From the NCBI RefSeq assembly GCF_003001935.1, contig NZ_PVNG01000013.1, positions 1-64,000 on the forward strand: 64,000 bases of DNA, given 5' to 3'. This document shows positions 27,000 through 30,876 of this stretch, in pieces (the first letter of the stretch is position 1; each line of letters opens with the position of its first letter). This DNA is from Nonomuraea fuscirosea. GTDB taxonomy: Bacteria > Actinomycetota > Actinomycetes > Streptosporangiales > Streptosporangiaceae. The translations under genes and the position numbers were made by a program. The notes beneath the pieces were generated by a model that saw only the letters and a program-made list of their open reading frames with translations, had not been told where the DNA came from and made no database searches.

Positions 27000-27623
27000 A
27001 TGGCTGAAGGGCTGCGGGAGCGGAAGAAGCGCGAGACGCGGGAGCGCATCTCCGACATCGCGACGGGCCTGTTCCTGGCCCGGGGGTTCGACAACGTGAC
27101 GGTGGCCGAGGTGGCGCGGGCCGCCGACGTGTCGGTCAACACGGTCTTCAACTACTTCAGCACGAAGGAGGACCTGTTCGCCGACCGCTACGACCTCGTG
27201 GTCGACCTGCCGCAGCAGGTGCTGCGCGAGCGGGGGCCGGGAGAGGGCGTGGTGCGCGCGTTCCGGCGCGACTACCTCGGCGCGATCGAGACGCGCGACT
27301 GGCGCTACGGGCTCAACGCGGGCAACGACGCCTTCTCACGGGTGATCAACGACAGTCCCGCGCTGACGGCCCGGCTGCGTGACGTCCATCTCCAGCGGGA
27401 GCAGGGCCTGGCGCGGGCGCTGGCCGGCGAGCTCGGCGCCGATCCTGGCGACCTCGTCCCGCGGGTCGCGGCGGCGCAGATCCTGGCCGTCACCCGGATC
27501 CTGAGCGAGCGCGCCCAGGCCATGACGCTGGCCGGCGAGCCGTGGGAGCGGATCGGGCCGCTGCTGACGGCGCAGGCCCACCAGGCGTTCGACCTGCTGG
27601 AGAACGGGCTGGGCGACCTTTAG
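27000..27623 (+). CDS. TetR-family repressor of the DrrAB-type exporter
   Basis: 207 aa. The N-terminal HTH is clear (ISDIATGLFLARGFDNVTVAEVARAADVS is its region, residues 16-45, then VNTVFNYFSTKEDLF). The C-terminal domain is ligand-binding and unassigned. ATG 27000 lies 66 bases from the divergent ATPase start, with a perfect inverted repeat between them. The arrangement predicts repression released by the exported compound. Confidence 0.93.
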   Translation: MAEGLRERKKRETRERISDIATGLFLARGFDNVTVAEVARAADVSVNTVFNYFSTKEDLFADRYDLVVDLPQQVLRERGPGEGVVRAFRRDYLGAIETRDWRYGLNAGNDAFSRVINDSPALTARLRDVHLQREQGLARALAGELGADPGDLVPRVAAAQILAVTRILSERAQAMTLAGEPWERIGPLLTAQAHQAFDLLENGLGDL

Positions 27624-27635
27624 CGCGAAGGGGTC

Positions 27636-27944
27636 TCAGATGTCCGACAGGGCGCCGAGGAGGCCGAACAGCAGGCCGATGGCCACTAGGCCCAGGGTGA
27701 GGATCAGCATCGCGCTGCTGATGATGCCGCAGATGCGGCCGGCCTGGACGTGGCCGCGGTTCTCGTAGAAGTAGCCGCTGCCGTCGATCTCACGCAGCGC
27801 CTTGTTGCCCATCGACCAGGCGAAGGGGCCGATGAACGTGCACACCACCAGGCTCAGGATCCCCAGCACGAGGATGGTGGTGCCGTTGGGGTGGCTCTGC
27901 GGCACGGGACCGTAGGGGCCTTGGCCGTAGTCGGGATAGGACAT
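27636..27944 (-). CDS. DUF4190-like small membrane protein
   Basis: 102 aa. A Tyr/Gly/Pro-rich N terminus (SYPDYGQGPYGP) precedes two hydrophobic hairpin helices (TTILVLGILSLVVCTFIGPF and GIISSAMLILTLGLVAIGLL regions) joined by WSMGNKALREID, a hallmark of the DUF4190 family. ATG 27944 is preferred since GGGGGA lies ten bases upstream; an in-frame ATG at 27962 is possible. The role is unknown. It converges on the TetR gene with only 12 bases between. Confidence 0.85.
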   Translation of the reverse strand: MSYPDYGQGPYGPVPQSHPNGTTILVLGILSLVVCTFIGPFAWSMGNKALREIDGSGYFYENRGHVQAGRICGIISSAMLILTLGLVAIGLLFGLLGALSDI

Positions 27945-28059
27945 GGTCGTATGGTCCCCCACATCGACAAGTCAGGGGGGTTTTATACCACAGTCCTCGG
28001 GTTGATCATATTGCGTCATCATGGTGCCGACCTGATCCACCCCTGAGGAGCCTGCACCC

Positions 28060-28941
28060 GTGCGCGAACGCACTCGAGCCCTGCTCGCCCACCGGCATTT
28101 CCAGCGGTTCATCATCGGCCTGATCGTGCTGAACGCGGCCACCCTCGGCATGGAGACCTTCCCTCCCCTGGTCGAGCGGTACGGCAGCCTGCTCACCGTG
28201 ATCGATCATCTCGCGCTCTACATCTTCGCCGCCGAGCTGATCGCCAAGATCTACGTCGAACGCGCCGCCTTCCCGCGCGACCCGTGGAACATCTTCGACA
28301 CGATCATCGTCGGCATCGCCTTCGCCTCCACGACCGGCGGCCTGTCGGTGCTGCGGGCGCTACGCATCCTGCGGGTGCTGCGGCTGCTGTCGGTCGTGCC
28401 CAGCCTGCGCCGCGTAGTCTCGGCGCTGCTGCGGGCGATGCCGGGGATGAGCTCGATCGTGGTGCTGCTGTCGCTGGTGCTGTACGTCGCCGCGGTCATG
28501 GCCACGAAGCTGTACGGCCAGACCGCGCCCGATCGCTTCGGCGACCTGCCGACCTCGCTGTTCACCCTCTACCAGACGATGACGGGCGACGACTGGGGCA
28601 ACATCGCCAGGGAGGTGATGAGCCGGCATCCGACGGCGTGGATCTTCTTCACCATCTTCATCCTCGTGTGCACGTTCGTCGTGCTGAACCTCTTCCTGGC
28701 GGTCGTGGTGAGCGCCATGGACGAGGAGAGCGAGGAGGAGCGGGCCGAGGAGCGGGCGGAGCGGGCCGAGGAACTGGCGGCGATCGAGGACACGACGGCG
28801 CACACTCAGCGGATCCTGGACGAGCTGGCCGCGCTGCGCGCGGAGGTCGCCCACCTGCGCGAGACGTTGCCTGACGGCGTGCGGGAGCGGTCCGAGCCGC
28901 AGCCCAGGCGCTCACGCCGGGCCAAGGCCGGCCGCAACTGA
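28060..28941 (+). CDS. NaChBac-type voltage-gated cation channel, predicted Ca-permeable
   Basis: 293 aa, the single-domain six-helix length. S4 carries four arginines at every third position (Arg99, 102, 105, 108 in LRALRILRVLRLL). The pore helix and filter read TMTGDDWGN with T175-G176-D177-D178-W179-G180-N181. In NavAb the same stretch is TLESWSM, and the engineered Ca-selective form carries Asp at 177 and 178, so this natural filter predicts Ca2+ preference. S6 (VLNLFLAVVVSAMD) is followed by an acidic neck and a heptad coiled coil (about 225-270) that should make the tetramer. GTG 28060 is preceded by GAGGAG. Confidence 0.93.
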   Translation: MRERTRALLAHRHFQRFIIGLIVLNAATLGMETFPPLVERYGSLLTVIDHLALYIFAAELIAKIYVERAAFPRDPWNIFDTIIVGIAFASTTGGLSVLRALRILRVLRLLSVVPSLRRVVSALLRAMPGMSSIVVLLSLVLYVAAVMATKLYGQTAPDRFGDLPTSLFTLYQTMTGDDWGNIAREVMSRHPTAWIFFTIFILVCTFVVLNLFLAVVVSAMDEESEEERAEERAERAEELAAIEDTTAHTQRILDELAALRAEVAHLRETLPDGVRERSEPQPRRSRRAKAGRN

Positions 28942-28958
28942 CCACCCGGCCGCGATCA

Positions 28959-29020
28959 GGCGCGGCCGTTCCCGGAGGCGCGGCGGTTCCCGGAGGCGCG
29001 GCCGTTCCCGGAGGCGCGGC
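28959..29020. repeat. 18-bp tandem repeat, 3.4 copies
   Basis: Unit GGCGCGGCCGTTCCCGGA at 28959, 28977 (one mismatch) and 28995, then a partial copy. It fills the space between the convergent channel and LtrA genes. Confidence 0.85.
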
Positions 29021-29038
29021 CCGCGCCGGCGGCCGGGA

Positions 29039-30253
29039 CTACGCGGCGGCGGCGTCGGGGGCGGTGCCGGGGGCCTCGCCGCCGCGGTGGCGGTAGGCGA
29101 CCCGCCACAGGGCCACGAGCAGCAGCAGCACGACCACGAGCCAGCCGGGCAGCAGCCCGGACACCGCGGCCACGATCGGCGGCACGAGGACGGAGGGCAC
29201 GGCCCAGCCCCAGATCCAGCGCCGCTCGGCCCGCAGGGCCAGGCCCAGCGCCGCGGAGGCGGCGAAGTACACCGCCAGCCCGCCGCCCAGCACCCAGCCG
29301 GCCCCGCCGTGCAGGTGCGCGCCCGGCTCGGCGGCGACCACGCCCAGCCCGGCCGCCGTCGCGGTGAGGCCGGCCGTCATGGCGAAGTGCGCGGGCAGGG
29401 CCACGTACGCCTTCAGCCCCCGCTCCGCTGCGCCGGGGACGGCGCTGAGGCCGTACTGGAGGGTGATCCACCACAGTGAGACGATCAGCCCGAACCCCGC
29501 CAGGGCGGCCAGCGCCAGCTCCGGCCCCCAGGACTGCCCGGAGGCGGCCAGCACGACCTGCATGACGGCCTCACCGAGCACGATGATCACGAACAGTCCC
29601 AGCCGCTCCCCCAGATGGACCGGCTCCAGCACGGCGGGGGCGTACTGGCCGGGCGCGGGGCGGGACCTGATGAGGTGCCTGTCGCGCTTCATCCGCCGCC
29701 GGATCTGCTCGTTCAGCTCCTCGATCATGCGCTCGGGCCGGCGGCCGCGGGCCACGGAGAAGCCGAGGTCGAGCAGCACGCCGATGCCCCACATGACGTA
29801 GCGCCAGGGGCCCTCGACCCAGATGGACGCGATCCACGGCGTCAGCCCCGCGCCCAGCTGGGCCGCGGGCCACGCGGTCATGATCGCGCCGGCCCGCTGG
29901 AGGCTTCTGGAGGCGCTCGACCTGGAGACGATGTACGCGGCGATGAACCAGCCGTCGTGCGTGCCGCCCGCGTCCATCTCGCGGGCGACGTCCGGCGCGG
30001 CGGCGGCCATCACGGCGATGCCGAACATGCCGATCAGCATGCTGAGCATGCGGGTGCGCTCGGCCCGCACGTTCGAGTACAGGGTCAGGGCGGTCCACAC
30101 GCTCCAGACCGCGTAGTACAGGACGACGAAGAGCGCCACGTCCGGCCAGGTCGGGTGGGCCAGCCGGTGGGCCAGCTGGATCACCGCCACCACGACCACC
30201 AGGTCGAAGAACAGCTCTAACCAGCTCGCGTGACGCTCTTCCGCTGCACTCAC
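29039..30253 (-). CDS. low temperature requirement protein A (LtrA) family
   Basis: 404 aa polytopic protein of about 12 helices. Family marks are the N-terminal WLELFFDLVVVVAV and the central EPVHLGERLGLFVIIVLGEA. The biochemical role of LtrA proteins is not known; the name comes from cold sensitivity in Listeria. GTG 30253 lies two bases after the S4 gene stop, so the two are co-transcribed and probably translationally coupled. Confidence 0.93.
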   Translation of the reverse strand: MSAAEERHASWLELFFDLVVVVAVIQLAHRLAHPTWPDVALFVVLYYAVWSVWTALTLYSNVRAERTRMLSMLIGMFGIAVMAAAAPDVAREMDAGGTHDGWFIAAYIVSRSSASRSLQRAGAIMTAWPAAQLGAGLTPWIASIWVEGPWRYVMWGIGVLLDLGFSVARGRRPERMIEELNEQIRRRMKRDRHLIRSRPAPGQYAPAVLEPVHLGERLGLFVIIVLGEAVMQVVLAASGQSWGPELALAALAGFGLIVSLWWITLQYGLSAVPGAAERGLKAYVALPAHFAMTAGLTATAAGLGVVAAEPGAHLHGGAGWVLGGGLAVYFAASAALGLALRAERRWIWGWAVPSVLVPPIVAAVSGLLPGWLVVVLLLLVALWRVAYRHRGGEAPGTAPDAAAA

Positions 30254-30255
30254 GG

Positions 30256-30876
30256 CTAACGAGAATAGAACTCCACCACGAGCTGCTCGTCCACGGGGAC
30301 CACGATCTGCTCGCGCTCGGGCCGGCTCACCAGCGTGAAGCGCAGGTCCTTCAGCTCCACCGACAGGTACGCGGCCGTGCGCTCGTCGGCGTGCACGCCC
30401 TCGGCCGCCGCGACGAAGGGCTGCATCTGGCGCGAGCGCGTCCGTACGGAGACGACCTGTCCGGGCTTGACCAGATAGCTGGGGATGTCGACCTTGCGGC
30501 CGTCCACGGCGATGTGGCCGTGGGCGATGTACTGGCGGGCGGCGTAGATCGACGGAGCCAGTCCCGAGCGCAGCACGAGGGAGGCCAGGCGGGTCTCCAG
30601 CAGGGTGACGAGCTCGGCGCCCGAGGCGCCCGGCTTGCGTACGGCGAGGTCCCAGTAGCGGCGCAGCTGGCGCTCCGACACGTCGTAGTACCAGCGCAGC
30701 TTCTGCTTCTCCAGCAGCCGCAGGCCGTAGTCGCCGGTGTTGCGGCGGTTGGTCTTGCGCCCGTGCTCGCCCGGCGGGTACGGGCGCGTCTCGAAGTAGC
30801 GGACGGCTTTCCTGGTCAGCGGGACGCCCGCGCGACGCGACAGTCGCACCTTCGGGCCGGTGTAGCGCACGTTCAC
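30256..30876 (-). CDS. rpsD: 30S ribosomal protein S4, cysteine-free form
   Basis: 206 aa, full length. The S4 RNA-binding domain is clear ([18 protein letters not shown] region, residues 88-105; [21 protein letters not shown]). The N terminus ([19 protein letters not shown] then RPYPPGEHG) lacks the four cysteines that hold zinc in many S4 proteins, so it is a C-minus form. It lies outside the usual alpha-operon setting, next to an iron box and directly upstream of ltrA. It could be the only S4 or a second copy; that cannot be decided from this window. Confidence 0.93.

Follow-up and report, generated by a model that had tools for sequence, protein, structure and literature searches.

A natural bacterial one-domain channel with a predicted Ca2+-preferring, Cav-like filter, and the Gly2 clade around it

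In the accessible parts of the literature on prokaryotic voltage-gated channels, the first Ca2+ channel described as native to a bacterium is CavMr of Meiothermus ruber (filter TLEGWVD), which the accessible part of a 2026 paper still calls the only identified prokaryotic Cav. The sources on BacNav and Cav selectivity drawn on in this study, each in its accessible parts, comprise PMC7041947, PMC10120453, PMC7764494, PMC12919392, PMC10349818, PMC4225499, PMC4436565, PMC5824947 and PMC6259924, and further PMC7041941, while Tang 2014 and Yue 2002 are known through later citing papers. As far as these sources go, the TLDDWSD and TLDDWAD mutants of bacterial Na+ channels, that is the engineered CavAb and CaChBac, are reported to be Ca2+-selective, as the initial annotation of the present locus had stated for acidic filter mutants of NavAb, and Ca2+ selectivity is associated with filter charges of -8e or -12e, Na+ selectivity with one of -4e. 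How four identical acidic rings choose between Na+ and Ca2+ is still argued, with conflicting rules based on charge (CavAb), on a flexible Gly (CavMr) and on block by trapped Ca2+ (NavPp and the L176G mutant of NavAb).

In this study, a channel gene in a window of 64,000 nucleotides from the soil actinobacterium Nonomuraea fuscirosea (contig NZ_PVNG01000013.1, forward strand) was investigated together with its relatives, most of which carry Gly at the second position of the selectivity filter (the Gly2 clade). Filter strings of the clade such as TGDDWGN and TGDGWSD gave one unrelated match in the open-licence papers searched, where no description of the clade was found. The strings 'Actinobact', 'nocardi' and 'TGE' are absent from the body text of the paper on CavMr, whose supplementary sequence tables may list members of the clade.

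The channel gene and its protein

The gene lies at 28060..28941 on the forward strand, starts with GTG and encodes 293 amino acids, with a probable ribosome-binding site, GAGGAG (28045..28050, same strand), 9 nt upstream of the start codon. A single-domain voltage-gated channel had been proposed here, and the open reading frame and a Pfam Ion_trans match (E=1.6e-48) agree with this; the best bacterial relative in the PDB by sequence is NavMs (5hvx, phmmer E=1.2e-63), and no NCBIfam family was matched by the protein. Having a single Ion_trans domain, six transmembrane helices and the S4 arginines that mark the BacNav superfamily, and grouping with known BacNavs by sequence (phmmer, trees), the channel belongs to the BacNav kind, as a variant rather than as a separate kind. 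The gene is a single copy in the 12.18 Mb host genome (E<=0.001). Its best relatives among named genomes came from Nonomuraea, with best-segment identities mostly of 65-85%, and a search of 98 genomes included 53 from the host's own genus. Compared with four orthologues of identical filter the gene has dN/dS values of 0.19-0.34, and compared with two of differing filter 0.45-0.50, which indicates purifying selection. A promoter and terminator scan of 27600-29100 found none, as chance would give. In many Nonomuraea genomes a second paralogue occurs as well, at about 52-60% identity and mostly with TGDDWG (L099-L110, L116 and others), and the window's genome holds only the first paralogue.

Across 39 orthologue rows, of which 38 are titled Nonomuraea and one '[Actinomadura] parvosata', the filter was TGDDWGN in 37 and TGEAWPD in two, among the latter N. 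soli (L036). A small DUF4190-like protein gene (27636..27962, reverse strand; Pfam 32.4 bits, below the cut-off of 35) adjoins the channel gene in 38/39 rows, and the gene for ribosomal protein S4, rpsD (30256..30876, reverse strand; Pfam), lies near it in 37/39. A TetR gene is near the channel in 32/39 rows and LtrA in only 7/39, and not one of the 39 rows was without all three of rpsD, the DUF4190-like gene and TetR; some loci end before the neighbour gene, and absences there are not losses. The locus of Streptosporangium amethystogenes (L037, TGDAWSD) has TetR, ABC genes and rpsD in common with that of Nonomuraea. Since neighbour genes are common to them, the channels with TGDDWGN, TGEAWPD and TGDAWSD are positional orthologues with different second rings. 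As a clue to function the neighbours were set aside: the ABC-TetR-DUF4190-channel-rpsD block is kept, but the genes around the channel are unrelated housekeeping or regulatory ones, and the Nocardioides rows L041-L044 have none of them.

The protein was modelled with AlphaFold2 as a monomer from a 32-row alignment (mean pLDDT 88.2, pTM 0.58), giving six helices and a poorly predicted end of about 24 residues. All of the following features are on the forward strand. The S4 helix (residues 96-112, 28345..28395; model and NavAb alignment) carries R99, R102, R105 and R108, which align with the four arginines of NavAb and are invariant in the 32-row alignment, so that the earlier count of four stands. 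The P1 pore helix covers residues 163-175 (28546..28584; model), the selectivity filter TGDDWGN residues 175-181 (28582..28602), exactly where it had been read before and as seen in the sequence and the alignments, and the P2 pore helix residues 179-189 (28594..28626; model and alignments), one residue shorter than that of NavAb. S6 and the cytoplasmic tail form one predicted helix (residues 193-269, 28636..28866; model), with an acidic stretch in the sequence at residues 221-244 (28720-28791), which bears out the long acidic tail described earlier. NavAb E59 and D80 are matched, and the N49 position is Asp. The top Foldseek match was a CavAb chain (E 2.6e-15), and among the matches listed, chains of NavAb, NavMs, CavAb and CatSper were tied by fold (Z 18.6-19.7); since BacNav, CavAb and CatSper chains lie within about 1 Z, the fold is uninformative on selectivity. 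An Ala at the NaChBac-G229 position was considered as a sign of slow inactivation and rejected, as NavAb carries Ala there too.

With canonical BacNavs (NavAb, NavMs, NaChBac), which give its best bacterial PDB matches in sequence and in fold, the channel shares the one-domain, six-helix fold, the S4 arginines, LNL in S6 and the tail helix, but the Na+-selective TLESW signature is absent, its filter having Gly2, Asp3, Asp4 and one residue fewer after the Trp (filter positions 1 to 7 being residues 175 to 181). The residue numbering matches that of NavAb up to 180. A one-residue gap follows directly after W179-G180 in both phmmer and MAFFT alignments. From the filter Trp to the column of NavAb W195 there are 14 residues in 171/171 Gly2 filters, compared with 15 in 22/22 TLESW filters; the TFEDW filters have 14 in 18/19 rows, the nineteenth row being a partial sequence. 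The spacing of the channel thus equals that of the TFEDWTD channels used here as stand-ins for the AnclNav group (Shimomura 2020). N181 lies opposite NavAb M181 or G182 according to where the gap is placed, and is filter position 7 by AnclNav and Cav spacing. Consequently, the alignment to NavAb proposed in the initial annotation is retained up to residue 180 and given up at residue 181, as the shorter loop (14 against 15 residues) makes a one-to-one mapping of NavAb or CavAb 181 onto N181 unsafe. The Asp-Asp-Trp-x-Asn/Asp pattern of CavAb-type filters is present, but the NavAb loop length is not matched.

Filters of the Gly2 clade

Homologues were found with a sensitivity tied to the window protein as query. 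Matches at E<=1e-15 occurred in 204/297 genomes of the host's order (48/62 genera), and matches were seen in 15/396 genomes sampled across the phylum, host included; at E<=1e-30 they occurred in 20/196 genomes of the order of a Nocardioides and in 64/240 genomes of the class of a Fodinicurvata. From several searches, 282 loci were hand-picked as best-scoring rows, a non-random sample, and after removal of 36 duplicates and 2 short rows and addition of the PDB sequences of NavAb and NavMs, 246 rows remained. With a Gly2 filter defined as [TS]G[DE]xW, 171/246 rows qualified, displaying 20 different seven-letter filters: TGDDWGN (64), TGDGWSD (23), TGDAWSD (21), TGEAWPD (12), TGDGWSE (12), TGDDWAN (11) and rarer others. 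Position 3 is acidic in all 171 (Asp 141, Glu 30), whereas position 4 is Asp in 81, Gly in 42, Ala in 41, Ser in 6 and Asn in 1. Gly176, which had been mentioned only in passing, is by these sequences a signature of the whole actinobacterial clade. The proposed check of filters in homologues therefore came out mixed: TGDDWGN holds in Nonomuraea and position 177 is always acidic, but Asp178 is found in fewer than half of the clade filters and is replaced in the two TGEAWPD orthologues.

The acids at positions 4 and 7 exchange for each other. Exactly two acids are present in 165/171 Gly2 filters, equal to -8e per tetramer, and one acid in 6/171 (TGESWSQ, TGESWSN, three of TGDSWSS, TGDGWST). Where Asp4 is present (n=81), position 7 is Asn in 75, Ser in 3 and Thr in 3, and never acidic; where it is absent (n=90), 84 rows have Asp or Glu at position 7. 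The association is strong when descent is ignored (Fisher p 4.7e-42), and a dependent model for the two positions beats an independent one (Pagel-type, 2dlnL 20.2, 4 df, p 4.6e-4), a kind of test that overstates few origins, of which there are three gains of Asp4 here. An independent-pairs test yielded 3 pairs, a number unable to reach 0.05, in which on average the paired site (b) differed in the opposite sense in 2.2 and was equal in 0.8. The model result is suggestive of linked evolution at the two positions. One exception, in the wider clade and not a Gly2 filter, is L112 (TTEDWPD), which carries both Asp4 and Asp7, and of seven Ala2 filters, five have one acid and two have two. The two exchanging positions correspond to NavAb 178 and 181, which act together experimentally as far as the accessible sources describe: S178G alone leaves NavAb Na+-selective, and M181A raises its Ca2+ permeability.

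Several other filters were noticed among the relatives. Actinobacterial one-domain channels without the usual filter Trp (L115, L129-L137: TLENLP, TLENFP, TLDGLG, TLDGLT, SLETLP) form a distinct branch in a quick tree. In the Fodinicurvata class, L205, L210 and L217 display the CavMr-like Gly4 filters TLEGWAD, TLEGWSD and TLEGWVE among TLESWSM relatives; a Beijerinckiaceae MAG (L047) holds another Asp3-Asp4 filter, TFDDWSG, with the longer NavAb-type loop; and Marinomonas pontica (G735) harbors both a TLESWSM and a TFEDWTD channel (L048, L182).

Descent of the clade and origins of Asp4

Filter columns were excluded from every tree. The Gly2 clade nests among TLESWSM channels, and in a quick tree with the TFEDWTD channels standing in for the AnclNav group it sits with canonical BacNavs and splits from these stand-ins with an SH-aLRT of 93. 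In a careful tree of 85 clade rows and 8 outgroup rows, Asp4 falls into three groups: 12 Nonomuraea rows including the window channel (support 100/98), nested in a 15-row group with TGEAWPD Nonomuraea (100/98); 13 rows of the second paralogue (100/98), nested together with TGEGWPD, TGEAWPD and TGESWPE rows in a group of 17 (100/100); and 9 TGDDWAN rows of the Nocardioides order (100/99). An alphaproteobacterial-class row, L210, has long branches and falls within the clade, a placement flagged as possibly false. This tree requires Asp4 to have changed at least three times, and a single clade of all Asp4 rows (AU p 4e-6) and a joining of the first two groups (AU p 4.1e-6) were both rejected, the groups so tested having been named after the first tree was viewed. 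Asp4 thus arose at least three times, of which gene conversion could explain one case. The first two groups display the coupled change at positions 4 and 7 most clearly, because the nearest rows of the third partly lack the position-7 acid.

The repeat of TGDDWGN in the two Nonomuraea groups might partly be one event, if, in an ancestral Nonomuraea, a short gene conversion overwrote the filter of the gene at the rpsD locus with that of the second paralogue; the tree would then overstate how often the coupling between positions 4 and 7 arose independently. We hold this less probable than separate substitution, yet worth keeping in view: both paralogues are present in many Nonomuraea, and their similarity is highest in a stretch of about 21 nt at the filter, where 15-nt windows reach 0.94-0.96, compared with 0.71-0.87 upstream. 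However, the residues flanking the filter keep the type of their own gene, GC-rich codons give the same motif nearly the same bases, and the TGDDWAN group, which carries Ala6, belongs to a different order and is separate. As the paralogues share those 21 nt and little beyond, conversion and repeated substitution look alike in the Nonomuraea ancestor. This alternative concerns origin, fits any selectivity and is judged separately from the readings of selectivity below.

Towards the animal channels, the likeness lies in the filter letters. Human Cav2.1 displays TMEGW, TGEDWN, TGEGWP and TGEAWH in domains I-IV, and the clade filters TG[DE][D/G/A/S/N]W match domains II-IV, with the letters D, G and A all covered at position 4; T-G-E/D-D/G/A-W is likewise shared with domains II-IV of eukaryotic Cav1 and Cav2. 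Those channels fuse four domains with different filters, whereas the window channel has one domain, presumably in four identical copies. Since the clade nests inside bacterial channels, in a tree of rows other than Cav, the likeness appears to be convergent. CatSper is also built of one-domain channels, and a review, in its accessible part, lists CatSper1 with Asp at this filter position, but it is an animal heterotetramer, and its fold match (Z 18.7) comes with 20% identity.

Readings of the ion selectivity

We lean somewhat towards a voltage-gated channel with a Ca2+-preferring, Cav-like filter. Under this proposal, BacNav-type one-domain subunits would assemble as a homotetramer with a filter remodelled to a Cav-like form, Gly standing at position 2 and Asp177 providing an acidic ring at position 3. 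Asp178, at position 4, would supply a further ring in place of the outer one at position 7 that is used by most relatives lacking Asp4, and the approximately eight carboxylates per tetramer would provide uptake of and preference for Ca2+, so that depolarisation, by moving S4, may open a voltage-triggered path of Ca2+ entry. The tetramer, the opening by voltage, the Ca2+ preference and the physiological role are thus predictions.

The Asp3-Asp4-Trp-x-Asn pattern is common to the channel and the crystallised CavAb chain 4ms2 (phmmer match line), which has Asn at the last position and whose entry is titled 'Structural basis of Ca2+ selectivity'; the window channel differs from CavAb and CaChBac in being natural, in having Gly for Leu176 and in its shorter P2. 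The outermost CavAb site may be Asp178; one paper, in its accessible part, gives the last filter position for this site. Domain II of animal Cav channels retains an Asp beside the high-field site, which is called a main determinant in the accessible literature. CavMr likewise has two acids per subunit, but with Gly at position 4, which the available sources hold to make it Ca2+-selective, in place of Asp178; the clade relatives with TG[DE]GW carry this Gly4 too. Four EF-hand_7 matches over the cut-off in the host genome (L283-L286) fit Ca2+ use weakly, as this profile also rings in 1/14 control genomes, and a search of the host genome for the Na/Ca exchanger PF01699 found none, which counts against the Ca2+ reading, as do NavAb S178G, the small number of independent Asp4 gains and the L112 and Ala2 exceptions. 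In its favour speak also the intact S4 charges, the two acids of 165/171 Gly2 filters, the 14-residue spacing common to the Gly2 and TFEDW filters and the dependence of positions 4 and 7 favoured by the model.

The channel may instead be permeable to Na+ or to monovalent ions and blocked by outside Ca2+, its acids and Gly176 holding Ca2+ without passing it, which we consider unlikely but well worth weighing. In the parts of the literature at hand, NavPp (TLEDWTD), which shares Asp4 with the window channel, has a roughly threefold preference for Na+ and is subject to Ca2+ block; the current of NavAb L176G is about halved at 40 mM Ca2+, with Ca2+ near the inner site in the crystal structure; and a 2023 review associates Asp here either with Ca2+ selectivity or with a Na+ conductance blocked by millimolar Ca2+. 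Yet NavPp, like CavMr, has Leu in place of Gly2 and a position-7 acid, and it lacks Asp3, while the L176G block is partial and was seen on a TLESW background with one acid. A poorly selective pore passing Na+, K+ and Ca2+ is less probable still: NsvBa (TLDSWGS), with Asp3 and Gly6, is described as non-selective and its filter transfers the trait to NaChBac, and CavMr-G4D loses discrimination against monovalents, its PCa/PNa falling to 7.7 from over 200, but NsvBa has one acid per subunit where the window filter has two. LDDWADG placed in NsvBa reportedly passed divalents but monovalents too, which cuts both ways. A selectivity outside these three readings seems very improbable.

The Ca2+ preference put forward in the initial annotation is accordingly kept in part: the filter agrees with CavAb 4ms2 at D, D, W and N, but Asp178 is not conserved outside the Nonomuraea orthologues, and transfer from NavAb is unsafe in view of the shorter loop, the Na+-preferring NavPp with Asp4, CavMr-G4D and the Ca2+ block of L176G.

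As judged from the sequences, the Gly2 family would be a large, apparently uncharacterised bacterial family whose filter was rearranged several times with the number of charges usually kept, and this clade with a movable second acidic ring is a wider and more useful result than the single channel. It is conceivable, at somewhat less than even chances, that the clade amounts to a natural collection of Ca2+ channels whose filters converged with those of domains II, III and IV of animal Cavs, the second ring having moved several times between positions 4 and 7 at a charge of about -8e; TGDDWGN would then be the native counterpart of CavAb and would add to CavMr another, independent kind of native Ca2+ channel in bacteria. 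According to the accessible literature, no currents were obtained when the whole filter was exchanged between CavMr and NavAb, and the TGDDWGN, TGEAWPD and TGDAWSD orthologues, together with their TGDGWSD relatives, allow the conflicting rules of selectivity to be tested without such disruptive swaps. The clade would also show whether the filter letters of animal Cav channels arose a second time in bacteria.
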